Under the pieces are notes generated by a model. That model was not told the origin of the DNA. It saw only the letters and a list, made by a program, of their open reading frames with translations, and did no database searches. A stretch of DNA of 64,000 nucleotides from Arabidopsis thaliana (taxonomy: Eukaryota; Streptophyta; Magnoliopsida; Brassicales; Brassicaceae): contig NC_003075.7 of assembly GCF_000001735.4 (NCBI RefSeq), positions 1,489,001-1,553,000 on the forward strand, in the 5' to 3' direction. Within the stretch, counting starts at the first letter, position 1; every line of letters starts with the position of its first letter. The position numbers were made by a program, and so were the translations under genes. Below are positions 1,912 through 61,747 of this stretch, one piece after another.

Positions 1912-4900
1912 CTAGTCCGCGGTAGAATCACCCGAACCATGACGCTCTCTTCTGATCATATCTAGTAGATCTTGAACAACTTCTGACATCAGTGGTCTAA
2001 ATTCTGGTTCAGACTAGAAAAGAAATAAAACTCTTTTGGTCACGCAAACACAATCACAAGCATCTAACCACAGTTTCTAATTGTCAGTATGTGTTTTACC
2101 TGAACACACCGGGATATTATATCAGCAAAGTGTGACAATGACTTTGCAGGGTATTGTCCATTAAGAGATGGATCAACCATTTTGCCCAATGCATCGATAT
2201 CATGAAGCTGTGGGATTGCCCACCTCACCAAGAACTGCTCTCCTCTACTCCGGTCCCTATAATCGACTCGTTGATATGAATAAATGCTTAACCGGAAACA
2301 GAAAACTAAGCAAATAAAACAATGTGACATGCATACCTATCGTAGGACATTCTACCCGTCAATAGTTCTAACATAACAACACCAAAACTATATACATCAC
2401 TCTGCCATGTATAGATTCCAGAGTCGAACTCTGGAGCTCCATATCCGTAAGCGGCTAGCAATTGCCCTGATAACTGATTATCATTATAAGAAATAGTTTA
2501 GTCTAACATCTTGAAATCTGTAGAGGGTATATCCATCAGAATCAAGCTCATTGGGTTTAAGTATTTTACCTGACTCACAGAGCCTGATGATATTAGTGGG
2601 GCCAAACCACAATCTGAGACAAGAACACTCAGGTCATCGTCGAGTAGAACATTGGCTGATTTGAAGTTTCTGTGTATGATAGGTGGTTCACACACCTCAT
2701 GCAAGTACCTTGAAAGCATTAACAAAAGTTAGCAATCAGGTAGAAAACACAGTTGGACACTTCCATTTTGAAGTAAATAAAAGAACTTACTCAAGGGCTC
2801 TAGCAGCTCCAAGTGCCATACTGACACGGGTATTCCACGAAAGTTTCTTCTTGAATTCATCGTCTGAATGCAACCCGTCTTGTAACGTACCGTTACTGCA
2901 ATATTCGTAGACCAATAGTCTTTGATCGTGCTCAGCACAGTAACCCACAAGTTCAACGATATTGGAGTGGCGAATCATATCTATATTGTTCACTAGTTCG
3001 ATAAATTCGTGATCCTGTTGTTGTTCAGAAGCCCTCTTGTCCAACTTCTTGACAGCAAACAACTGTGAAAGACAAAAGACTGAGAACCAAAGCAGAATTT
3101 CTGAGACTGAAATGTTTGAATTCAATGCATTATACCTTTCCATTGGGAAGCCGGGCCCTATAAACACTACCGAGCATGCCTGAGCCAATGAGATTTTCCT
3201 GAGCGAAGCTTTCCGTGTATTGTTGAAGAGAAGCAATAGAATAGTGCTTCACAGAAGTTAAGGGTAAGCGTTTAGGGGAAGTTTTCTTAACGGGTCTTTC
3301 GGGTGATATGATTGGCATAACCGTGACCTTCTCATCCAAAGGAGGAGGTGGTGGTGGTGGTGGAGGTGGTGGAGGAGGAGGCATCAACATTGAAAAGTCA
3401 ATATCTTGACTTTCCTGTCTTGATATAGGTGCAGGTCTCCGCAGCCTCTCAAGGTCATGTAAGACCTTTGGTTCCTCTCCAGCTTTCTTGAAGGGTTCTC
3501 TTTGAACTGTTCATAAGCACAAGACCAGCATTACTTAACAATAGACAGTAGGAACCAATAGCCAAACTTGCAAACTTCAATCTCACCTTTTTCAGATCGA
3601 CCAGGTGGTGGCAGTACCGGAGTCCCGTTTTCCAGAGCATTCTCTCTGCTTCCTCTATCAGCACCAACTTGATGCGGTTTGAAAACTCTGTTAGCATGTT
3701 CTCTACGTCTTGCACATTTTGGCAACAGCAAGAGTATTGCCAAAACCAGAATTATGAAGACGAGGACGCCAGCGAATGCAATAAGGATTATCTTTTTAGT
3801 ATGTGAAGAGTTCTTTCCCTTTGAATTCTCAGAGCTCGATCCTTCTGAATCAGAAGGTCCATCAGCAACTTTCCCTCGATTCCTCTCATTTGGAGGAGGT
3901 GGAACTCCAGAAAATGGTCGCGTTGGAGCTGGTTTTGTTGGAGATAGAGACGGAGACAATGATGGTGCAGTCGAGGTGGAATTGATCATTGTGGCATTGA
4001 ACGGGTTTCCTTCATGTCTGCATCACCAATTTATACACAGAGCAATTATAAGAACCTGAAATGCCTCCATAGACCATAGTGTATTAGTAAACAAAAGAGC
4101 ACTTACAGGAATTTCGGAATGCTTAGTAATTTGTCCGGTATGGGTCCAGAGAAGAGGTTATTCTCTATGTTTCTGTTTCAAGAAGACAACAAAAACTAAG
4201 ATTTTGGAAAAGTTACTCACTGCTTAAGTACTTATACGTTGTGAGAGAAAGAAACATACAAGTCTTGAAGAGGAAGGCCTTGAAGAACGTCCAGAGTTCC
4301 TGAGAGCTGATTGTTCTGAACACGTCTGCAAAACTCAGACTATCAGCTTTGTGAAGAAAGAAGCCAAAAGAGATTCAACATTGTAATGATCGAAACTTAC
4401 AATGTTGTAAGAGTTAATAAATTCTCCATAGAAGGAGGCAATGTGCCGCTTATATTGTTAGATGATATATCACTGCACAAAGATATCAAATCACAAAACA
4501 ATCCATAGAAACAATAACTGTTAACAAAACTACAAACAAGAAGAAGCATACAGATTAATCAGCCCGACAAGGTTTTGAAACACGTCGGGTAGCTCTCCAG
4601 AGAGAAGGTTATCGTTCAAAGACCTGAAAACAAATGGTATAATTCTCACCAGTCATCAGCACAAAGCAATGGAAAAAAAAGAATTTGGGAGTTATCTGAA
4701 CTTACATGTCATTCAGAAAACTCAATGTTCCTAGAGATTCCGGGATGCTTCCGGTGAACTGATTAGCTGAAAGAAAACTGCCAAAAGGTAAAAACCATTA
4801 TCATACAAACTGTTCAAAGCAACAAACCCGATCCAAAAAAATATACAGTGTTAGGTGTATACATACAAATGCTGCAATGTAACCGGCAAAGTAGAAGGTA

Positions 4901-32077: not shown

Positions 32078-34290
32078 TCAATCACACGGACCAGAGCCAG
32101 AGGTGTGATATGTTTCAGCATCTTCTTCATCAACAAACCATAATAGCATTCGGAGAGGATATCCGTTGCCCAGTGACAACGACCAAAGCCAGGAATATAT
32201 GGGACAGTGTAATAGGCAAGAAGAAAATAGAGCACAAAATAAAATACGCGCTGAATATCTATATATACATTTTTGCAGCAATTTTGTGAAATAAATCTTA
32301 TAGTTGGGACTTATTTACAATAGCTGCCACTGGATTTTAATGTTTGTTTTTGATAATTAGAAAAAAAATCTTCAAATTAAATATTTGACATTTAACAATC
32401 TTCCCTAAATCTCTCCACATTAACTACACGATTAGTTACTAAAATAAAACTTTCAAAATATTTAATATCATTTATTTACTACAAAATTATCATTTTTGAT
32501 ATTGTTTTTCTCCATGACTATAACAATTTAATTATAATCGTCAAATCGCAGAGATATTTGATAGCATTTAATTATTACAAAATTACAAAATATTTAGACA
32601 ATAATTCATAAACATATCATAAATAAGATTAACATTAATAAAATAAATGTTTTTTTTATGGGACGGGTTGGCGGGACGGGTTTGGCAGGACGTTACTTAA
32701 TAACAATTGTAAACTATAAAATAAAAATATTTATAGATAGATACAATTTGCAAACTTTTATGTATACTAACTTTAAAAAATAAATTGTTTCCGCGGTGTA
32801 CCGCGGGTTAAAATCTAGTATTTAGTGAAGAACGAAAAAAAATAACTAGTATATCACTTGTTGTAGCGAGCACGCCAAAATAGAATGCGACCTACATGGA
32901 GTTTAGAGCCAAAGACAGAAATGGAAAGGCAAACTGAAAGGCTTTGTGGCCGAGTTCTGGATCACCCAGCAAAGCCCAAATAAGAACAAGTATTGCTACA
33001 ATAAGTTAACCAACAACCAAGTCCTGAACTGCTTAGCCGCCTCTAAGAACATAGCTCAAGATTAAAAAGAAATGGCAAGCCAAGAACATAGACTACCTCA
33101 AAACCAGGTATGAGCTGGAAACAAACCAAAAGTCTGACAATTTACATGGCACGAGATTTTCCTTAATAAAACAAGAAGCTGGAAATTGACTTAGTGCAGA
33201 TTCTTTTAGTCATTGTTGCTGTTGTGAGTTGTGACCAGCGGCCGAAAGCGAAAGGAAATGGTGGCAGCAAAAGATGTGTTGAAGTGAGGGTTGGGTAAAA
33301 AAAACTTAGGTACTGAAATAATGATCACCAGCAAAACAACAAGAGGTCATTTTGACTATCTGTCAACTACAATCACAGTGATCAAACTGGACCTAGCTAA
33401 TTATGATACAATCTGTATGTGTCTCTTGGGAATCAAACCTCAGTTTGATCGACAAAGCATCAAAATGAAGCACTTTTTTCTTTAAATAGAGAAACAGGAC
33501 AATTCAACCCAAAGTGCGGAAATAAAATGAAACAGAATTGCATATATAACAACAACGGAATCAAACACTTACATTTCCCACTATTTGTTGCAATGCAAAG
33601 AACGTTCTAACCAAGCTTGTTAAGCAGGTGTTTTGAATCTGGACAATGTTTTAGAGTCTCTTTGACAATTCTGATATGGCCATTCGTTGCTGCCAAATGA
33701 GTGGAAAGGGTCCATCATTGTTTCACACGTAAACACTCTTCGTTAATCGTACTAACAGGTTACATACTCCTTTATAAAACCCTATGGATGCTCCAATTGA
33801 AAGAGAATTTATCCCTTCTTCACATCACTCATCCCCAAGACTTGGATCTGTATAAATTAGCCCACATGCAAATATTTAGTCTTCTGTCCCAAACTAGTCA
33901 AACAAACTAAACAGAGCTACTAATTGGTAAGAAGCAAAACAAACTTCTACTCTTGGCCTTCAAAGCCACGTGTACAAAATCAAAGTTCGTCTTTCTTCCT
34001 TCATTGCTTGTAGTTCTCAACTTTGATACCACGAGTGGGACATTGCCAGCTTCCACTGCCAAATACAAGGGAGATATTCCAACTTTACTCGCAAGAAATG
34101 AAGCACATTGGTTCACATTTACCAGACATGCAGCTATCTCCACATGGCGACCTGTCAAGGCCAAATGCATAGCAGTATCTCCGTCCTTCAGATCATATAG
34201 ATTCAGTCTCAACCTCTCTAAAACAGAATAGCTGAAGATATGATATTGATGTTGCAACAAACGCTTCGATAATAGCTAAGTGGCCAGCAA
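32078..34290 (-). pseudogene. Ankyrin/PGG pseudogene P1, composite and split by a Helitron
   Basis: Pieces of the ankyrin-membrane gene family occur in order on the minus strand with many stops. 32078-32250 matches the C-terminal end of the membrane exon (close to the copy at 56700). 32860-33020 is the middle of the membrane exon. 33045-33300 matches the 3' flank and last codons of the gene at 48354. 33580-33760 is an ankyrin exon piece, and 33930-34290 is another (GDTAMHLALTGRHVEIAACLVN, GISPLYLAVEAGNVPLV). The mixture of subtypes shows that it is a composite. A Helitron interrupts the first two pieces. Confidence 0.75.
32258..32818 (+). mobile_element. Non-autonomous Helitron (561 bp)
   Basis: The element starts TCTATATATA and ends CTAG. 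It is flanked by A on the left (32257) and T on the right (32819), the A|T insertion rule of Helitrons. A perfect hairpin, CCGCGG-TGTA-CCGCGG (32791-32806), sits 12 bases before the 3' end, as in Arabidopsis ATREP elements. There is no Rep/helicase frame and no target duplication. The flanks are two parts of one ankyrin-family membrane exon, so the empty site can be inferred. Confidence 0.82.
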
Positions 34291-38479: not shown

Positions 38480-39070
38480 GAAGTGAACTATAAAAAGATT
38501 GTGACTTGTTGTAGCAAGCAAGGCATGATAGAATGTGGCTGACATGAAGACTAGAGCAAAGGCTAGTGACGGCAAAGCCAACTAAAAGGCTCTGTGAACG
38601 AGTCGAGTCTTCGAGATCACCCAACTGAGCCCAGATAAGAGCAACTATTGCTACAAGGAGCTCTGCATTGCCACATTGTCATATACCATAAATAATAAGT
38701 TGATTATTGGAAAAAATGGCCATCATGCCCAAGTTCGGAGCTACTAATGGTAAGATGCAAACAAACCTGTATTCTTGGCCTTCAAAGCCACGTTTCCAAC
38801 CGTCAATCAAAGTTCGTCTTTCTCCCTTATTGCCTGTAGTTCTCAAGATTGCTATCGCAAGTGGGACATTACCAACTTCGCACTGCCAAAGACTAGGGAG
38901 ATATTCCATTTCTATTGGCAAGAAACTGGTTACATTAACCAGACATGCAGCTATCTCCACATGGCGACCTTTCAAGGCCAAATGCATAGCAGTATCTCCA
39001 CTCTGTCCTCCAGATTACATAGATTCAGTCTCAACCTCTCTCAGACAGCCTAGCTGAATCTATGATATCG
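38480..39070 (-). pseudogene. Ankyrin/PGG pseudogene P2
   Basis: Two decayed pieces lie on the minus strand. 38480-38700 resembles the middle of the membrane exon (AQLGD-like and HRAF-like segments with stops and indels). 38760-39070 resembles the ankyrin exon (MHLALKGRHVEIAACLVN and GNVPLAIAIL). Frames shift several times. It abuts duplicated flanking block S1. Confidence 0.7.
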
Positions 39071-39830
39071 ATGCAACAAACGCTTCAATAATAGCTAAGT
39101 GGTCAGCACGAGGAAGAACATGGTTTAGAGAGCCACTCTCGATATATAATACTACAATTTCTTCCATAAAGCCCCTTCTTATATCGAGTCAACAAAACAT
39201 CTCGTCCCCAAATAATGTCTCAAGAATACAAACAATGATCAACTCGAGAACTTGGAGTTGGCTAGAAAAAAACACCAAGCTCGAAGACAATACCAGGGGA
39301 CAGATGCTTCGTTTACTCGACATTGTAAGGGGTTTAATGGATGAAAAAGTAGTATTATATATTAAGAATGTGTTGATATACAATGACGAAGCTGATACCA
39401 AGTAGCTGAAATTGAAGAACTGAAGATACCAGATTCTCTAGCTACTCCGCAAACCTTCTAAAGCATCTGAAATTGAACAGTGAAGTATATATAAAAAAAG
39501 CATCCAATGGCAGGTGAATTGAACAGATCAACTCCGCGATGATAAGCATTCATAGAAAAAGAAGGCTCCAGTTTTTATATATTGTCCATCCTCTTAAGCA
39601 AGAAGAAGTGGTCAAGCAAACAAGACATGATCCAAAAGAAGAAAGCGTTGAATGGATAATAAAATATTCAACGACTTACTGGTTTCTCTGAACTTGATAT
39701 GTTAGTTTTGCAGAAGCAGAACATATGTATGTGTTGTACCAAATCCTATAGTATCCAATTCAACATCTCTCCATGCTTCGCTCGAAAAATCCATAACCCT
39801 AAACATTAAAAGTCTTCGAAAATATAGGAC
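39040..39830 (-). repeat. Segmental duplication S1, copy 2
   Basis: Closest to the copy at 46330-47100: the two share long runs from the ankyrin exon edge (cagacagcctagctgaatct) through the cttatatcgagtcaacaaaa block. It is less similar to 34240-35060. Confidence 0.8.
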
Positions 39831-44339: not shown

Positions 44340-45440
44340 TCTACAATTTCCTACTGTAATAACCACCCAAAAATAGAACGCAGGGCATGCAGAATATAGC
44401 AAAAAACAGTAATGGTGACGCCACTTAAAAGGATCTGTGAGCGAGTGTAGGATCCCTCAACTGCACATAAATCCGAGTTAAGTATTGTCATAACAGAGAT
44501 TTGCATTGCAAGGGTGTCAAATACAAGATAAGAAAATAGAAGAGGTTGGGGGCATTGGCTAATGTTGCCATTCCCAAGTTTGGAGAAGAGTTGTCAAAGC
44601 CTCCTGCCATTGTAAAACCTACAGAAAAAGTTACTGTGGCTACAACTACAAGCCTACAAGACATACCACCAGTAGAGGTAAATATTTGGTTTTATCACAG
44701 TTTGTGAAATGATATAGATGTAATTTCCCAGTATTTGCTGCAATGTGAACAACGTTCTGACCATGCATGTTAATCAGGTGTTTTGAGTCTGGAAAACGTT
44801 TTAGAATCTCTTTTGACAACCTTGACGTGGCCACTCTTTGCTGCGATATGGGTTGGAAAACATTTATCATCGTTTACACGTAAACAACCTTTGTTGATCG
44901 ATCTAACAGGTTGCATTACTCCTTTATGAAACGCTATGGATGCTCTAGATGAAAGACAAGTTATTCCTTCTTCATCTCGTTCATTTCCAAGACTTGGATC
45001 TTCTTTAAGAAAAGCATTAAGGTCATCTGTATAAATTAGCCCACATGCAAAGATTTAGTCTTCCGTCTCAATACTAGCTGAATATAGAAATTTGAACAAA
45101 CTAAACATAGCTACTAATGGGTAAGAAGCATCAAAAACAAACCTGTATTCTTCGCCTAAAAATCCATGTATAGAAGAAATTTTCTACCCTTCCAACTGAA
45201 TTAAAGTTAGACTTTCTCCCTCCAAGTCCATCATTGCCTCTAGTTCTCAACATTTCTGTCATAAGTGAAACGTTACAAGCTTCTACTGCCAAATACAAGG
45301 GAGATTTTCCATCTTTATTCGCAAAAAATGAAGACATTGGTTCATATTGACAAGACATCAGCTAGCTCCACATGGCGACCTGTGAAGGTCAAATGCATAG
45401 CAGTATATCCATCTCTTTCCTTTCGATCATATAGATCTTC
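44340..45440 (-). pseudogene. Ankyrin/PGG pseudogene P3
   Basis: Ordered relics of a whole gene lie on the minus strand. 44340-44660 is the membrane exon (NFSVGFTMAGGF-like region, frame broken). 44660-45030 is the second ankyrin exon (KEILKRFPDSKHLINMHGQNVVHIAA). 45130-45440 is the first ankyrin exon (FFANKDGKSPLYLAVEACNVSLM). Stops and indels are many. It is related to the ankyrin part of P1 at 33580-34290. Confidence 0.75.
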
Positions 45441-46260
45441 GTTTATTACTATAATCCCTTTAGTGTTCCAAACTTTCAAGCAATGTGGCAGCACCCGGAG
45501 AAGTAGCTATGAGTGTGAATGCCACCTTTTACATAAAGAATTGGAAAGTCTGGCTCTAAACCCAAATGATTATAGAAAAAAAGTCAACACAGAGACTGAG
45601 GCATGAACAAAAAGGAAAGCGAATTATGTCAAACAACCATTGAATGAACAACATGTCGTATACTAACCAAGTGCCACACCAAGTTAGAGTCTTTCAACAA
45701 AGTTTTTCCACATATCCGTGAGAAACATGTATTGGTTTTACATAACCACAGATCATGTACTGAAATTGTTAGGCATTCTAGGATAAATATAGTTGGGAGC
45801 CTTTTGGCTTTGGGAGAGTTCTTAACCTTGATTCAAATGTAAGAAGACAGTATCAATACTTGATTCTTATCAGAATTGCTAGGAGATCTCTAAAAACAGA
45901 GCTCAAGATTAGAAATCACGGCAAGCCAGAATCATAGAGGCTGCCTCAAAACCAACTATAAGCTAGCGAAAATGCAATCACGTTTATTCAATACATCTGA
46001 CGTAACTTACATGACACATTTTGGTAAAAGAAAAAGCTGAGTAGTGATCTACCTCGGATACTTTCAGTACTTGTTTCTGTTGTCACCAGCAGCCAAAAAC
46101 ATAAGAAAATAGGGAGAGTAAATGATGTGTCTAAGAAAGGGATGGGTAGGAGAATGTGGGGACAACATATGGAATAATGATCAGCAGCAAAATCAAAAGG
46201 AAGATCAAGCCGATCATCACTGACATAAACACTGTCTAGAGCTTTGTCTAACAGATAGCA
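45430..46260 (-). repeat. Segmental duplication S2, copy 1
   Basis: Matches 47806-48500 closely, including caaactttcaagcaatgtg, cagcacccggagaagt, gaattggaaagtct and aggctgcctcaaaaccaact. A third, partial and more diverged copy is at 33045-33300. Confidence 0.85.
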
Positions 46261-46319
46261 AAACCCTTCATAATATCCTAAGGATGCTCCAAAAGAAAGA
46301 CAAGTCCTTTTTTTTTCCA
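45960..46319 (-). pseudogene. Deletion derivative P4 of ankyrin gene C
   Basis: The right part matches the beginning of exon 2 of the gene at 48354 (CLSFGASLGYYEGFCYLLDKALDSVYVSDD). The left part matches that gene's last codons and 3' flank. About 0.95 kb between is missing: sequence equal to 48513 continues directly into sequence equal to 49437, near 46214. At about 46319 it ends abruptly in a T-run and continues as block S1. Confidence 0.85.
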
Positions 46320-46329
46320 GTCTCAACCT

Positions 46330-47403: not shown

Positions 47404-47697
47404 TTAAAGCACTTTCGACTTTTCCGCTTGGACCCCGCTTGAAGATCCCATGGACTCCCCACTCTTCACACACGTGTGAGATGAGCCGGTGGTGTAATTT
47501 TTTTCATCATCATCTTCATTAACAAACAGCAATAGAAAATCAAGATATGAACTAGTCAAAACTCCAACAATAAGAAGCCCGTAAACCTGCGGGATCACAT
47601 AAGGGGTAAGGACTAAGGAGGCTGCGGTTATACAAATGAAAATCAGAAAAACAAAGCTCAAGATGCGTTCCCGATACGAAACTTCAGAAAAATCCAT
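47404..47697 (-). pseudogene. 3' fragment P5 of ankyrin gene A last exon
   Basis: A 97-codon open frame is nearly identical over its last 75 residues to the end of gene A (TPYVIPQVYGL.I.GVLTSSYLDFLLLFVNEDD and SSSGVQAEKSKVL). It lacks the ankyrin region and three membrane helices, and the first 20 or so codons are unrelated. It is not expected to give a working protein. Confidence 0.85.
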
Positions 47698-53058: not shown

Positions 53059-55283
53059 TTAAGTAGTGTCTGACATTTCAACTTGATCATTGTTTGAGAT
53101 CTTCTCAGACTTGTGCGCAGAGAACTGAGGACTTTCGTGTCCGTCATCATCACATGAATTTGCAAAACTAACAAATGGCATCATCAACTTATAACTAGAG
53201 CCACAATAATGTAGTAGAAGATGAGGCATAAACCTTGAGAACGCCAGAGTTAAAATGGAGAAAATTAAACAGAAGATGACATAAACAAGCCATCTAACAT
53301 TCCCAGCTGCAATAACCATGACAAAAAAGAATGCTAAGGTCATGAAATACATAGCGAAATACAGTGATATCATGGCCACCCTTACGGAACTCTGATATAA
53401 TGTCGGATCACCTAATTGCGCCAATATGAGAGAAACTACTGCTAAAAATGAGGTTTCCAGTGCCAAAATGTCAAATATCAGGAAAAGGATGAGACGAGGG
53501 TTAGTTATTAGATTTGCCATGCCCACGTTTGGAGTAGAGTCTTTAAAACCACCTGGTATAGTAAATCCAGACGTAAACGTTACGGTGGTTATAAGAGCTG
53601 CCACTACTAGAAGAGCGTTGATGTAATCTTTGTTTCCGCCTTGAGGCATTATTGGTCTTGTTTGAATCATAGTATGTGCGCATCTAGGATCATTTTGGAA
53701 GTGAAGTTGTACTAAAGCTAGCAGTGTCAACCTCTGTAATCAAAACTCAAGGGTCAAAAGCTGTAAATAATTGATCCGATATTAGAAAGAGGTAAGCTAG
53801 ACATACCTCTCGAAAGATGTAGTGTGGTTGCAGTTTTGACTCAGCAATATCCAGAGCTACCAAGCCGTTATTGTTTTGTATCAACAGGTTTTTCTTCCCT
53901 CCAAGCTCACGAACAGCTCGAGGACGCCAATATATTGTGGCTAGATGCAGTGGTGTATTCCCATCCACATCTTTCTCGTTAGCTAGATGGTTTATTTGTT
54001 CATGTGCTGTCAAGTGGCGTAGAATTCTAAATTTCCCACTTTCAGCTGCGATGTGAAGGAGGTTCTGACCTTTTTTGTTAAGCAAAAGCTTTGAATATGG
54101 ACAACGTTTGCAAATCTCTTTGACAACTTTAATACGACCTTTCTCTACTGCCAGGTGGATTGGATAGGAACCATCATCATCACATACAAAAACACCCTTT
54201 CTTGATCGGTTTAACAGGTTGCATACTCCTTTATGATACCCAATGGATGCTCCAAACGAAAGACAAGTCCTTCCTTCTTCATCTCGCTCATCCACAAGAC
54301 TTGGATATTCATTAAGAATAACATCAAGGATATCTGCTCAAAAAAGTAGGTATATCACTTACCGTACATAAGAAGATTCAGTTAATTCAGGTTTGAACTT
54401 ATGATCCTGCAAATTGGAAAAAACAAAACAAACCTGTGCTCAAGGAATTCAATGCAGCGTGTGCAAGATATTTTCTCCCTTCTAAGTTCAAATTTTTCCT
54501 TTGAGGACCATCATTTCCCAACATTGCTTTTACAAGTGATGCATCCTTGGCTTCTACTGCTAAATACAAGGGAGATATTCCGTCTTTACATGCAAGAAAG
54601 GAAGCTTGTCGGTTTGCATTCACCAAACAGAGAGCAACCTCCGTATAGTGTCCTTTCAAGGCCAAGTTCAGAGCAGTATCTCCATTTATGTCCTTCAGAA
54701 GATATGGATTCAGTATCTCCCTATCTTCTTCAGCCAGTCTAGCTGAGAAAAATGTAACCGACGCAACAAGATCCTCAACAACAGCTAAGTGACCCATTCG
54801 AGCTGCCACATGAAGTGGAAGCTGGTCCTTAGAGTTTGACTCCATTAGAAGGCAAGAACATTCAGAGACAATGTTCTTAACTAGTTCTAGATGACTCCAT
54901 GTAGCAGCAAGATGAAGAACAGAATCTCCTCGATCGTTCTTGAGACATGTTAGTGGTGTTCCATGGCTTCTCAATTTCTCCAGCCATTCTTCGTTCCCAA
55001 GTGTGCTAAGCATCTCCGCATTCATCAGCACATATTCACCAGGGAGATCGAAAAGATCGGAAAATTTGAGATTAACTAAGAACTCCGGCACAGTCTTCTC
55101 GGTATCTTTCATTGGCAGCGGTATGGCTTTTCCTCTGTTTCGAAGGAAACCTCGTGAACTGAGTGAGCGAAGACCGTTGTTTATCTTGTTCATGGAGAAA
55201 TATCCTTGTCTCCTTTGGTCATGAGACGAATCAATTGAACTCTGTGACTCAATTCTACTTAGACGTGCTTCAGAAACATCCAT
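53059..55283 (-). CDS. Ankyrin-repeat/PGG membrane protein D (AT4G03470-like)
   Basis: Three exons (54434-55283, 53807-54333, 53059-53733) give 683 residues. The start MDVSEARLSRIESQ at 55283 was preferred over an ATG at 55469: an acceptor (gactttag) lies just upstream, and gene A has a leader intron in the same position. Residues about 60 to 455 carry ankyrin repeats (VLHLAATWSHLELVK, PLHVAARMGHLAVVE, ALNLALKGHYTEVALCLV, PLYLAVEAKDASLV, PIHLAVEKGRIKVVK, PLHLATIYWRPRAV). The last exon has YINALLVVAALITTVTF, IPGGF and four helices, with an acidic/Ser-rich tail. All frames are open. The 683 residues agree with my memory of AT4G03470. Confidence 0.9.
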
Positions 55284-55479
55284 CTCAAACCTAAAGTCAT
55301 CCCACAAATTGTTTGAAGTAACAGTTTTAGTTCTCCAACAATAAAAGAAAAAAAAGAGTAAACATACCAAGTCAAAAGGGAAGAGACGACTTACCAAGTG
55401 AAGGAAGAAGAAGATAAGAATTGCAGGAGGAGTCGCTAAAGCTTGATGAAAGAGAGACTCCATGTTCATCCATTTTATA

Positions 55480-56290
55480 AAACCAAAGTCAGTGTAGAAA
55501 ACAGAGTGAAGGTCTTTTTTTAATCCGAAGTAAAACCTAACATCTCGATGTGAGTGAGGTCTTGTAGGCTGTAAATGGGTAATTTGTTTCGTATTTTATG
55601 AAAAATCTCTAAATTCCAACTTTAAAAACTTCAACTTAGACTCCTAGAAGGCTAGAACAAGTTGACTGAGTTAACATTTCGAAATAAACATGTTAGTCCG
55701 TTAATGACGGAAGTTTTTTATTCTCCACTGAAAGCTAATGACGACTTTTGACATCTAAATTTATATTTAAACAATAAACGTAATCTGTTAAAAACTGCAG
55801 AACGAAATTACTAAACTAAACTAGTCAATACAGAAACAGAACGTAATCTTTCAAAGCAAAGTGAACCTTATACGGTATAAGTTATACCTCTCGATCAGAG
55901 AGTTTTAGGCTGGTAGGGAAAATGGTAGAGTTTTAAGCCCCAAAGTCCCAAACTCATGAACCTTAAGCAACTTCGATTTATTTCTAGCACAAAATGTATA
56001 TTTTTCGTCTAGGTTTCCTCACATTTAAAAAAACTGAACAATAGCACCAAGGTGGCGACGAGAAATCCTAAAATAAGAAAAGAAACAGAGCCAAACTCTT
56101 AGTCGAACGACCAAGATGACAAACTGATCAAGAAAAAAAGTAATGTTGTGGTGGAAAATTAGACATACCTTTCAAAATAAGTAGTGGGGTTGGGATTTAG
56201 TTCGGCGATACAAAGTTGTCAAGCCGTTAATTATTTTGTATGAAGAGGTTTTATTGCCCTGCAAGGCAATGAGCAGCTCTAGCATGGGAT
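55480..56290 (-). repeat. Segmental duplication S4, copy 1, with ankyrin relic P7
   Basis: Matches 60045-60600 in order (accaaagtcagtgtagaaa, cagagtgaagg, ttaagcaact.cgattt, cagagccaaactcttagtcg). Its end, 56165-56290, is the decayed 3' end of an ankyrin exon (minus strand, FNPNPTTYFERYV-like) with a lost segment in the LDIAE motif. Spacer 56290-56717 holds nothing else recognisable. Confidence 0.75.
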
Positions 56291-56717
56291 TCTTTCTACA
56301 ACCACGAGTATACCAAGAATCTATTTGCCAAAATATACACAGTGATCAAATCAGACTCATACCTCCTGTCAGTATTTTTCTCAAAATCAAACATCATATT
56401 TGATCAAATGCCTCTATACCAAGTACGAATACAACCATTTGAGGAGATTTGACGTTTCAACCTGATCTCCACGAACTCCAACTTGGCCACAAAAGTTATT
56501 GATACAAGAGTTCTGATGTTTTCAATCGACATCATTAACAAACCACAAAAGAAGGGTTGGAGATATAGAATTACACACAAGAAAGTGCTAATAAGATTAT
56601 ATACATGTATTCAGAAAGAGATATATGTTTAAGAAGAATCTACTTTCGACTTTTGCACTTGATCTGCGCCTGAGGATCCCACTGACTCTTCACACAAGTG
56701 TGACCAGAGCCAGAGGT

Positions 56718-57023
56718 CTAATATCTTTCAGCATCGTCTTCATTAACAAAAAACAAAAGAACGACAAGAGAAATACGAGTCCATCTTTGAAGAAAAGGGA
56801 TGCCAGGAACCTGTGGGATAACGTAAGGCGCAAGGAGGACGATCATCACACCATAGAAGATCAGAGATATAATGGATATGAAGTTTATGAGCAAAGTGTT
56901 TTGCTTAACTGTAGCCTGCAAGGCAGAAACGAATGCCCATGACATGGAGAGTAGAGAAACGAAGAGTGATGGCAAAGCCAAATGAAAAGCTCTGTGAACG
57001 ATTGCAGGATCCCCCAACTGTGC
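56718..57023 (-). other. Untranslated tail of ankyrin gene E beyond a premature stop
   Basis: An open stretch of 102 codons continues the frame of gene E after the TAG at 57024-57026: AQLGDPAIVHRAFHLALPSL, then two hydrophobic helices, ending FVNEDDAERY. It equals the end of the membrane domain of genes A and B. It has stayed open, so the stop is probably recent. Confidence 0.85.
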
Positions 57024-59231
57024 CTAAATCAGAGCAACTATTGCTACAATAGAGCTTTGCATCGCCAAGGTGTCTAATACCAGAAAAAAGAAGAGGGTGG
57101 AGTCATCGGCCAAAGTGGCCATACCCATGTTTGGAGCAGAGCTGTTAAAGCCACCAGGTATTGTAAAACCTGCAGCAAATGTAACAGTGGCTACAAGAGT
57201 TGCCACCAGCAGAAGAGCGTTGATATGGTCTTTGTATTTTTTAGCGTCTAGAGGCTCTGATCTGCTTCTTAGTGTCATTCCACTCGTCGGTAGCCAACCA
57301 ACACTTTTCGGTGCGTAAACGCACAGCAGTACCATCAACGTCAATCTCTGTTATCCCAAGTAAGATAGAGACAAAGGCAATGAGCTCTATTTGGTTTGAC
57401 ATTGGAACAAAAAGGAATACATGGAAAAATAAATGTTATACACCTCCCGTAAAACGTAGTCAGGCTGTAGATTTAACTCTGCAATATCCAGAGGTCTCAA
57501 TCCATCTTTGTTCTGTATATTCAGGATTTTTGTTTCGGTAGAAGCAAAGGCAGCAAGTTTATCAACAGTTCGACAGCGCCAATTTATGGTGGCTAGGTGC
57601 AAAGGTGCATTCCCATCCACATCTTGCTCCTCGATCAGATGATTCTCCGTATCAAGTCTCCTTATATAACCCAAAAGAAAAGATCCCACTTTCGCACTCT
57701 TTGCTGCAATGTGAAGCATGTTTTGACCTTGTTTGTTAACCAGCTCTTTCGAATCTGGACAACGTTTTAGAATCTCTTTCACAACTTTCAAATGACCTTT
57801 CTCTACAGCCATATGAATTGGAAAGGAACCATCTTTGTCGCATTCATAAACACTCTTTGTTGATCGATCTAATAGCTTACATATTCCTTTGTAATACCCC
57901 ATGGATGCTCCAACAGAAAGACAAGTTCGCCCTTCTTCATCTCGCTCGTTGACAAGGCTCGGGTCATCATTAAGAATAACATTAAGAACATCTGCCCAAA
58001 CAAGTAGTATTTCAATTAGTTTCTTCTAGCAAAGAACTTTTGAACAACTAAATTTGGAGACAGACCTGTATTTTTGGCCTTGAGGGCTGCGTGTAAAAGC
58101 GATTTTCTCCCTTCCAATTGTGAAGCTAAGGTAGAGGTTTTTCCTTGGATTTTATTACCAGGACGGTTCAACATCGCTCTCACAAGTGATACATTACCAG
58201 CTTCAACTGCCAAATACAAGGGAGATGTTCCATCTTTATTCGCAAGAAATGAGGCATGTTGGTCTGCATTCACTAGACAGGCAGCTGTCTCCATTTGGCG
58301 TGTTGATGCATCAGAAAATGAAATGCATCTGCTACGTCGCCAATGCATAATAAGGTGAGACAAGGATAGTTTTCTGATGCGCTCCTGATATCTCAAAAGC
58401 TAGGACAGAAATTATAGATTCATCAGACACATAGGTAAGCTGTTGGAGATAAGATTAGACGATCAAGATATTTGGTCTAAAACAAAGACGAGTAAGAGGC
58501 GGATCCTAATGCAACAAGGAATTCAACAAAGCATAGAAACATGGAACAAAATTAGTAAAGTCCATTGATATAGAAAATTTTGTAGCAAACTTTACGAGTG
58601 TCTTATTTCTTATACCCTAAACTTAAATTTGACTGATAAAAACAAAAGTCTTCATTCCTCACACAAATATGTTTTATCTTACATGGCTTACCTCTGCTTT
58701 TTCATGGAGGTCTTTCAAGGCCGCATGCAGAGGAGTATCTCCATCTATGTCCTTCAGAACATATATATTCAGTCTATCCCTATCTTCTTCAGGCACTCTA
58801 GGTGAAAAATATAATACAGAAGCAACAAGAGCCTTCACAACTGCTGAACGGCCAGCACGAGCGGCCACATGAAGCGGAATCTGATACTTCGAGTTTGGCT
58901 CCAATAAAAGACAAGGACATTCAGTGATTATGTTCTTCACTAGTTCAAGATGACCCGAAGCAGCAGCAAGGTGAAGAACAGAATCTCCGCCATCGCTCTT
59001 AAGACATGCCATTGGCGTTTCGTAGCTTTTCAACTTTTCCAGAAGCTCTATGTTCCCCGCTCTCATTGCGCTAAAGATCTCAGGATTCATCGGCACATAT
59101 TCACCAGGGAGGTTGAAAAGATCCGAAAATCTGAGACTGGTAAGGAACTCTGGAACAGATTCGGTGTCAAGACACACAACCGTTGACCTATGTACCTGGA
59201 TTGTATCTAGACGTGCTTCACAATAATCCAT
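57024..59231 (-). CDS. Ankyrin-repeat/PGG protein E, truncated by a nonsense codon (AT4G03480-like)
   Basis: Four exons (58692-59231, 58066-58384, 57444-57991, 57024-57347) give 576 residues. Full length would be about 678. Start MDYCEARLDTIQ at 59231 matches the start context of gene D. Ankyrin repeats include VLHLAAASGHLELVK, PLHVAARAGRSAVVK, PLYLAVEAGNVSLV, PIHMAVEKGHLKVVK and PLHLATINWRCRTV; the last exon has KDHINALLLVATLVATVTF and IPGGF. At 57024-57026 the conserved Trp of ALIWAQLGDP is TAG instead of TGG, ending the protein after two of four helices. The 307-bp intron 58385-58691 inside an ankyrin repeat is shared with gene A; its acceptor has moved upstream, adding about 20 residues. 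It may be a pseudogene, or a truncated but expressed variant. Confidence 0.8.
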
Positions 59232-59667
59232 CTCAAACTTTAATCGTGACACAAATTGTTTGAAAAGAGGATTTTACTTTTCAGTTCCCCCACCAAGAGA
59301 AAAGTAAATGATTCCAAGAAGAGTGGCCAAAGAGAGACTTACCAAGTGAAAGAATGGGATAAGACAAGAGGATTTGCTTAAGCTTGTAGGGAGAGAGAGA
59401 TAATATAAATTGATTCATTTATATAAAAACCCTTTGTTTGGAGATCACTGTGAGTGTGATGGTCACCTATAAATTAGTGGAAGGTCTTTCGAATTGTTTA
59501 AGAGGAAATAGTAAACGCAGGAATGGAGGTAAAGTCATTTTCAAAGAAGCCTCAAACCTGAGTACCTGACTTGTCACAACACGGCAATTCAAACAGGGAG
59601 TTTTGATATGACGTTTTGAAAATGTCCTGAAAACATATAAATAAAATAAAAGACCCGAGTTATATAA

Positions 59668-59735
59668 TGTTAGTATATAACTAACGACTTTGAATTGCTG
59701 TTAGTTATAATGTTAGTTATAACTAACGACTTTGA
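59668..59735. repeat. Palindromic tandem repeat
   Basis: Two near-identical units (59668-59693 and 59711-59735) each contain a palindrome; in the second it is a perfect GTTAGTTATAACTAAC. The surrounding 59290-60040 holds the gene E leader and no supported gene. A GTTTAAGCGGAGAA-like block near 59820 recurs near 38440. Confidence 0.7.
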
Positions 59736-60044
59736 CTTTGAAGTCGTCGTCCCTAATAAAATATAATCTAAGTTCAACGGGAGAAAGTGACAACCTGCAG
59801 TTTGACGGAGACGATGCCGGTTTAAGCGGAGAAGCTTCTGGCGTGGCACGGAGAAGATGTGAACGAACCATTCCTTTGGAAGAAAAGATAGGAGCGAGTG
59901 GCATCGTTGGTAGACTATTTGTTGCAAGATGGTGGTTTAGGGTTCACATTCGATCAGCATGGTATTACCATTGAAATCCTTCCCTCCCAGCAAAAGAGTC
60001 GATTCAGATTCATACTTAGGATCTGAGTTAGTATACTCTTTTCG

Positions 60045-60600
60045 TCCATTTTATAAAACCAAAGTCAGTGTAGAAACAGAGTGAAGGTAATTTGTTTATT
60101 ATATTATGAAAAAAATAAAAATTTATTGAAATTGCATTGACTTATGTAAATCAAGCCACCATCTTTTTGTTTTGCCGTCTAATTTTATTTGTATTAAAAC
60201 CAATGTCTGAACTCTGAAAGTCAAGAAACAAAACAGAACAACAAAACCTCAAAAATCAAGCCACCATCTACCGAATCTATATACAAACTCATGAACGTTA
60301 AGCAACTCCGATTTGTTTCTAACACAAAATGTATGTTTCTTTGTTTATGTTTTCTCACATATGAAAAACTGAACAGTAGCACCAAGCTGGCGATAAGAAA
60401 TCCCAAAACAAGAGAAGACACAGAGCCAAACTCTTAGTCGGTTTCTATCAACCAAGATTCAAAGGTCAAACCGACAAACTGATCGAGAAAAGGTAATGTT
60501 GTAGTGGGAAATTAGAAATACCTCTCAAAAGATGTAGTGGGGTTGGGATTTAGTTCGGCGATATCCAGAGCTGTCAAGCCGCTATTATTTTGCTGTCTAG
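60045..60600 (-). repeat. Segmental duplication S4, copy 2, with ankyrin relic
   Basis: Counterpart of 55480-56290. Its right end (about 60520-60596) is a minus-strand ankyrin exon end with the LDIAELNPNPTT-like segment intact. It stops exactly where plus-strand ankyrin sequence begins. Confidence 0.75.
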
Positions 60601-61451
60601 CCACCAAAACTGGCACCCTAAAGTTGTGAGTATGTTTTCTTGGGACCATCATAGAGGTGACCTGAAAAAACCAAACTATAATGGTTCCACAGCTTTAGAT
60701 GTAGTAGAACATTGATTGGAGCTACGTGTTTCAACAGGTAATATGACAAAGATGTTACCCCAATATTACCTTGTATACAGCGATTGACTTGGATGGCTTT
60801 GATCAATGCTGGTGCACCAAGAAGTTCCAGTCCAGTTTCAGAAAGTCTTAGATCATTCAAGCCAGAAGGTGGAAAGTACAAAGATCATGTCAATTCTTCC
60901 GTTTATTGGTTGCAACTCTTGTAACCACCATGACTTTTACTGCAGGATTCACATTACCAGGTGGTCACAAAGGCTCTGTTCCCAACTTGGGAATGGCCAC
61001 TTTGGCTCAGAAAACAGCTTTCCAATTCTTTCTTGTATGTGACATATTGGCGATGTATTCCTCTATCATGACAATAGTATCTTTCTCTCAACTCAAAAGC
61101 CTTCAACATCGCACTTCCAGTTCTTTTCGCTTACATCAATGTCAATAGCGTTTATGGCAATGTATCTTGCAGTAAGCGACCTCCCTTTGCGTGGTTAATG
61201 GTGACATCTTCCTGTTGGTTTTGATGCTGCTCCTTGTTCCCTATTCGTCTCCATATAAGTCATACCCAACTCTTCTGTTGGTGCAGGAACTAGTTGATTT
61301 ACGGAATCAACATCTTCCTTCGACATATTCTGTACTAAAGAATTCAGGCTTCTTGATAGTGCTGCAAAGAGCAACAATTATGTCAATGCAGCAACAGATG
61401 AATGAAGACACATCAGAGCTAGTCATAGAGGCTTCAGACCATAATGGCTAA
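60597..61451 (+). pseudogene. Inverted ankyrin/PGG pseudogene P6 (AT4G03490 region)
   Basis: This is the only family member on the plus strand. 60597-60750 is the end of the second ankyrin exon (NWHPKVVSMFSWDHH, ALDVVEH then stop), followed by an intact-looking intron and a membrane exon from about 60782 (RLTWMALINAGAP, GGKYKDHVN). A frameshift follows near 60893, and the continuation MTFTAGFTLPGG, AQKTAFQFFLVCDILAMYSS is in another frame. The AQLGD region is lost, and C-terminal helix remnants run to 61451. One A is missing in the AAAAA run before NWHP. It is most similar to gene C. The first ankyrin exon and most of the second are absent. Confidence 0.8.
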
Positions 61452-61747
61452 TTAAATATCTTTCTTCGCCGTTAAAGGAAAATTGAGTTCTCTACATAGC
61501 TTCATTGATTACCACAATAGAAAGTAAGAGAATAACACCACTGTAACAAAAAGTTGAAAGTATTTATTAGTCAACATAAGAATACACTTTGCAACTCATG
61601 GGAGACATGTTAGGAAGCAAGATACAATGTGGTTTTTAAGGCAAACTTCCCGAAACCAATTTAACTACTACCAGCACCGCATAATTCAAACTCAAGCTAA
61701 AACATCATGAGACAAGGGAATTCAGGAATTTTCAAGTCTTGATCTTC

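Follow-up and report, generated by a model that had tools for sequence, protein, structure and literature searches.

The available parts of the literature on ACD6 describe it as a calcium-permeable channel that is modulated by the peptides MHA1 and MHA1L (PMC11387256, PMC12273917). Its activity requires the membrane domain, and the protein is reported as, or is consistent with, an oligomer (PMC4091793). Natural disabling alleles are found in this group: ACD6B of strain Bla-1 has a premature stop, and At4g14390 lacks its start codon in some strains (PMC4091793). In wheat, seven susceptible Lr14a mutants include one with a premature stop in the transmembrane (TM) domain (PMC7878491). DM10, a TIR-NLR gene of Arabidopsis thaliana, also carries natural premature stops, and one of the truncations is a hybrid-necrosis risk allele (PMC7826191).

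Gene E, the subject of this analysis, resembles each of these in part, as far as the available text of the sources allows comparison. It shares with ACD6, At4g14390 and ACD6B its membership of the ANK-PGG clade, in which copies have natural disabling alleles. However, the Bla-1 stop removes most of the ankyrin repeats and the membrane domain, whereas E retains its ankyrin region together with half of the membrane domain; alleles with phenotypes are known for ACD6, and none were found for E. The Lr14a EMS mutant also has a stop inside the membrane part of an ankyrin-transmembrane (ANK-TM) immune protein, but that mutation was induced, was found by resistance loss, and lies in a protein with six predicted TM helices. 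DM10 is an immune gene with natural premature stops, but it belongs to another protein family, and no role as a risk allele is known for E. At4g05040 is ACD6-like, has lost its frame within about one codon of the E stop and remains open downstream; it differs in having a 4-nt insertion instead of a nonsense change and in lying outside the tandem cluster.

The window (the whole stretch analysed, 64,000 nucleotides) and its features are given in Table 1. Among loci elsewhere in the genome, we take L050 to be At4g05040, L051 to be At4g14390, L052 to be ACD6 (At4g14400) and L054 to be At1g03670. The positions of L051 and L052 agree with the chr4 8.11-8.40 Mb interval in the available part of PMC4091793. 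Seven tandem ANK-TM genes, At4g03440 to At4g03500, have been described on chromosome 4 (PMC9353636, available part). By this order, genes A to F are At4g03440, 03450, 03460, 03470, 03480 and 03490, so that E is At4g03480; gene G (locus L053), the next beyond the window, is At4g03500. Five ankyrin-membrane fragments lie between the open genes of the window, and tblastn shows stops in several of them. The cluster is of the birth-and-death type, and one disabled copy there is unremarkable.

Table 1. Positions of the features of gene E, its surroundings and the related insertion in At4g05040 (window coordinates unless a chromosome or locus is given).
Feature	Position	Strand	Basis or remark
Window	chr4:1489001-1553000		A. 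thaliana Col-0; gene E on minus strand
Exon 1, ankyrin repeats, ATG at 59231	58692..59231	minus	open; homologous to A and D from their ATG; Ank_2 1.5e-14
Exon 2, ankyrin region	58066..58384	minus	GT/AG flanks; homology to A
Exon 3, ankyrin repeats	57444..57991	minus	Ank_2 6.7e-14
Last exon up to stop, PGG domain with TM1 and TM2	57024..57347	minus	PF13962, hydropathy
TM1	~57215-57159	minus	hydropathy
TM2	~57083-57027	minus	hydropathy; ends at the stop itself
TAG stop at clade TGG (Trp) codon, end of TM2	57024..57026	minus	alignment of clade
101 open codons after stop	56721..57023	minus	TM3 and TM4
TM3	~56981-56919	minus	hydropathy, downstream of stop
TM4	~56873-56817	minus	hydropathy, downstream of stop
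Second in-frame TAG	56718..56720	minus	at TAC (Tyr) of A by DNA alignment; A homology runs on in same frame
A-like C-terminal tail remnant	56629..56717	minus	7-nt gap relative to A between 56689 and 56688
Family fragment	32856-34236	minus	tblastn match outside six open genes
Family fragment	38498-39122	minus	tblastn match outside six open genes
Family fragment	44347-46323	minus	tblastn match outside six open genes
Family fragment	47509-47658	minus	tblastn match outside six open genes
Family fragment	60778-61115	plus	tblastn match outside six open genes
At4g05040 insertion	L050 ~4247-4260 = chr4 ~2,581,746-2,581,759		alignment

AT4G03480 is named among defence genes in a microarray study, so a transcript signal has been reported (PMC10045578, available part). 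The available excerpts of this and the other papers that name At4g03480 make passing mentions of it and say nothing on the TAG stop, and the gene is absent from the titles and abstract openings of the papers listed on premature stops and ACD6. No Rfam family reached its gathering score in 55000-61500.

The homology-based model of gene E comprises four exons, bordered by GT/AG, and its reading frame runs for 576 codons before the TAG. The AG acceptor at the start of the last exon is found in all 11 clade genes. Apart from the TAG, the upstream part of this model is intact, with ankyrin repeats and TM1-TM2. The N-terminal ankyrin repeats of the ANK-PGG family are present, as the exon 1 and exon 3 ORFs pass the cut-off; for the exon 2 ORF, Ank_2 falls under it (23.0 vs 27.3 bits). 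Ahead of the stop, PGG (PF13962) is matched at 5.6e-22 over profile positions 2-75 of 116. The complete four-helix domain is absent from the frame, in that the profile match ends at position 75 and TM3-TM4 follow the stop. Hydropathy places TM1 and TM2 ahead of the stop and TM3 and TM4 behind it, and so bears out the expectation that a truncated protein would keep its ankyrin repeats and two of four helices. The downstream 101-aa piece alone has no Pfam match, and no solved structure matched the membrane-domain profile at E up to 1. Gene E is a truncated ANK-PGG member by descent. The TAIR model of the gene presumably ends at chr4:1546024, which is the TAG described here, and presumably starts at an ATG at 59871 (minus), upstream of 59231. 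The extra 5' exon may be spurious; the starts of A and D correspond by homology to the ATG at 59231. Since the stop is in the last exon, the exon-junction trigger for nonsense-mediated decay would not be expected.

The earlier note described a nonsense change (TGG to TAG) in the membrane domain of an ACD6-like ankyrin gene. This was confirmed: the plus strand reads CTA at the site and the minus strand TAG, in the frame SSIVAIVALI-stop-AQLGDPAIVHR. Seven of the 11 clade members (A, B, C, G, ACD6, At4g14390 and At1g03670) have Trp in frame at this codon. The other four have Leu (D), Gly (F), the stop (E) or, in At4g05040, a position just past a frameshift. If Trp is ancestral, a G>A transition (plus-strand C>T) accounts for the change. 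As claimed, A (35606), B (40971) and C (48668) read ALIWAQLGD here, as does a relic at 38642, but D and F do not have the Trp. When 30 loci were aligned, a partial copy on C1 also had Trp, and the remaining distant ANK-TM loci had other residues or a gap. Both pieces of the interrupted frame match the family far beyond chance; among the best candidates listed, the 108-aa piece before the stop has at least 32 genome matches and the 101-aa piece after it at least 11. The claim of 102 open, family-like codons downstream also holds, the ORF 57023-56718 having 101 codons plus a stop; over the matched stretch it is 60% identical to B and 51% to A.

Two side observations concern this codon. The frames of D (53439-53407, minus) and F (62110-62078, minus) are open with Leu and Gly respectively; an open frame does not require Trp there. 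The C1 copy (L032, C1:911616-911789 plus flank) is a short, partial ACD6-like copy adjoining At1g03670, which keeps the Trp (LIWPQHLGD) and ends early in the region of the last helix.

The description of the site as a single-base change holds for the TAG codon but not for the gene, since E also differs from A downstream by another TAG and a 7-nt gap. Past the second TAG, the same frame is still A-like (TSGSGHTCVKS). The tail peptide of A scores 69 against E in this frame (best of 500 shuffles, 41). After the gap, another frame is A-like up to a TAA, with a score of 51 (best of 500 shuffles, 31). These two lesions are defined relative to A only; A is the one gene from which a long ancestral tail can be drawn, since B lacks 24 nt at the second-TAG site by DNA alignment and the tail of D scores no better against E than shuffled sequences do. 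Lesions that disable the ORF when compared with intact relatives are a criterion for pseudogenes, and E has them in the form of two TAGs and the gap. All three of the ORF-breaking differences from A fall in approximately the last 18.5% of the gene; if positions were uniform, the probability of this would be 0.006, or 0.034 for the other two given the first, but these figures are post hoc, the tail length is approximate and tails are variable in paralogs. As the C-terminal tail varies in paralogs, the second TAG and the gap may be harmless and older.

The stop had also been said to look recent, which is not established. In a neutral simulation (with an assumed kappa of 2 and an assumed 0.1 indels per substitution), 101 codons remained without a stop or frameshift in 0.84 of runs at 0.005 substitutions per site, 0.52 at 0.02, 0.20 at 0.05 and 0.04 at 0.1. 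The mutation rate is near 7e-9 per site per year. At this rate the simulated divergences correspond to millions of years, and an open frame is by itself no sign of a recent stop. Dating the stop by its open downstream frame was dropped as weak, because the simulation permits long ages.

Selection was estimated with our own codon-model script on a fixed topology of 11 genes out of 32 matches, with relics and distant genes left out. In a search with TM1-2 of E, these 11 genes outrank all distant ANK-TM genes among the 32 matches listed. For E, dN/dS covers exon 3, TM1-2 and the post-stop part, and as a branch average it is silent on the time after the stop. On the E branch it is 0.385 for exon 3 plus TM1-2 (2dlnL vs 1 = 9.4) and 1.26 after the stop (2dlnL 0.2 vs 1, 2.2 vs one ratio). 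The retained-part signal is carried by exon 3, which gives 0.35 alone (2dlnL vs 1 = 8.1); TM1-2 alone gives 0.55 and is not significantly below 1 (2dlnL 1.0). A common omega for the retained and post-stop parts of E fits worse (2dlnL 4.3, 0.55 being the best of four grid values). The pattern fits relaxed constraint after the stop in E, but not significantly relative to the family. The contrast was not accepted as proof of decay, as the family itself is looser after the stop position (0.59 vs 0.42 in the retained part). On other branches the post-stop region gives 0.83 (A) and 0.29 (B). In segment trees, the nucleotide branch of E is 0.115 for exon 3, 0.082 for TM1-2 and 0.162 after the stop. 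The fixed topology comes from a joint tree of the 11 clade genes, built with no distant ANK-TM gene, in which E stands beside A with a support of 56; this pairing does not appear when TM1-2 is used by itself. Among near-invariant residues, E departs from the family at 4 of 48 in exon 3, 0 of 26 in TM1-2 and 1 of 14 after the stop, all of which are small numbers.

The best explanation is that gene E is an ordinary disabled tandem copy of an ACD6-like ankyrin-transmembrane gene whose loss is tolerated through its paralogs; the probability of this is roughly 0.66. E belongs to the ACD6-like genes of a tandem birth-and-death cluster, and in the Col-0 reference its frame is broken where the second membrane helix ends. 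A translated product would have 576 aa from the homology-based start, with all of the ankyrin part and a TM1-TM2 hairpin but neither TM3-TM4 nor the tail. Intact family members are believed to act as oligomeric membrane channels, so channel activity would most likely be lost, and E is probably channel-dead in Col-0. The suggestion that the absence of half the membrane domain could abolish or change activity is plausible by analogy with the Lr14a mutant. Loss of activity would then be tolerated through redundancy, as paralogs remain. The disabled-copy reading is supported by the stop and the lesions in the last 18.5% of the gene, by the dN/dS contrast (0.385 vs 1.26), by the nearby family fragments and by the Lr14a analogy. 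It is weakened by a post-stop dN/dS that is not significantly above the family value of 0.59 (2dlnL 2.2), by the 0.55 of TM1-2, by the 13 of 14 near-invariant residues that are kept, and by the variable paralog tails, which mean that the second TAG and the gap may be harmless and older.

An unlikely alternative, although the best placed of those considered, is that the short ankyrin-TM1-TM2 protein is functional, for example by partnering full-length ACD6-like proteins in a regulatory or dominant-negative way. Part of the evidence for it comes from At4g05040, which reaches the same end point by a different mutation. Where ACD6 has ACT CTT ATT TGG GCG, At4g05040 has ACT CTT ATA TAT ATG GGC, with four extra nucleotides in a TA run relative to ACD6 and At4g14390, at the codon adjoining the position of the E stop. 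Its frame ends six residues on (CTLIYMGAVG-stop), just past TM2. Downstream, an ACD6-like frame is still open, with a divergent tail; the other (upstream) exon ORFs, read as separate ORFs, are open. Two clade members, E and At4g05040, therefore end just after TM2 by different mutations. If positions were uniform, two lesions within about one codon would be expected at 0.4% over the gene or 1.4% over the last exon, but the comparison is post hoc and of two events, and TA runs are prone to slippage. This coincidence is the one point that deserves specialist attention. On the branches of both genes, exon 3 plus TM1-2 is under constraint; for At4g05040 dN/dS is 0.447 in the retained part (2dlnL vs 1 = 6.3) and 0.744 after the frameshift (0.4). 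A branch average, however, is silent on the time after the stop, and TM2 of the short protein would end without a polar tail. The available text on ACD6 oligomers and membrane-domain dependence (PMC4091793) and on the truncated DM10 receptor as a risk allele (PMC7826191) is consistent with an active short form. A stronger version, for which the odds are long, is that truncation after TM2 is recurrent and selected, At4g03480 and At4g05040 having independently become two-helix ankyrin proteins, regulatory subunits formed by loss of the second half of the membrane domain, that co-assemble with full-length ACD6-like channels and tune them.

It is also possible, but rather improbable, that the stop is limited to Col-0 or a few accessions and that most of the species has the longer frame. 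Gene E would then be a segregating truncating allele, as at ACD6B, At4g14390 and DM10. One transition suffices for this, the downstream frame is open and family-like, and related immune loci have segregating alleles that disable or truncate the gene, according to the available parts of PMC4091793 and PMC7826191; the two further downstream differences from A count against it. A pattern allowing either base at 57025 had 0 matches in viral_contigs and 0 in genome_contigs, collections which are not plant-oriented and from which entries close to the window's own genome may be missing.

Bypass of the TAG by splicing or readthrough is very improbable. The TAG does create an additional AG that would keep the frame if joined to the native donor at 57443: the last intron is phase 0, as is that donor, and the next candidate, CAG/TTG, is in phase as well as TAG/GCA. 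However, TAG/GCA scores -9.0 as an acceptor, against -1.4 to 19.4 for the 22 native sites (leave-one-out), and comes 17th among the 29 AGs of the exon; CAG/TTG scores 2.2; the matrix is small (22 acceptors and 11 donors from 11 genes) and dominated by CAG acceptors. Joining either AG to the donor at 57443 would also remove TM1-TM2. A splice event that removes codon 57024-57026, which had been named as what would overturn the nonsense reading, thus has poor sequence support. The motif associated with readthrough is CARYYA. It is absent here, and the base following the stop is G. An error in the reference at 57025 is the least credible explanation, as nothing was found in its favour in the one assembly, Col-0 is a finished reference and a heavily resequenced accession, and the TAIR model presumably ends at exactly this codon.

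Disabled copies are ordinary in such clusters; the less ordinary part is that in the related At4g05040 the frame breaks almost exactly at this codon. Arabidopsis serves plant biology as its reference species, and conclusions on the function of the ankyrin-membrane cluster lean on Col-0. If At4g03480, and with it At4g05040, lacks half of its membrane domain in Col-0, then Col-0 knock-outs would be uninformative on the full-length gene, which would have to be sought in other accessions. That two frames were cut independently just past TM2 provides a cheap, testable hypothesis on short ACD6-like forms.
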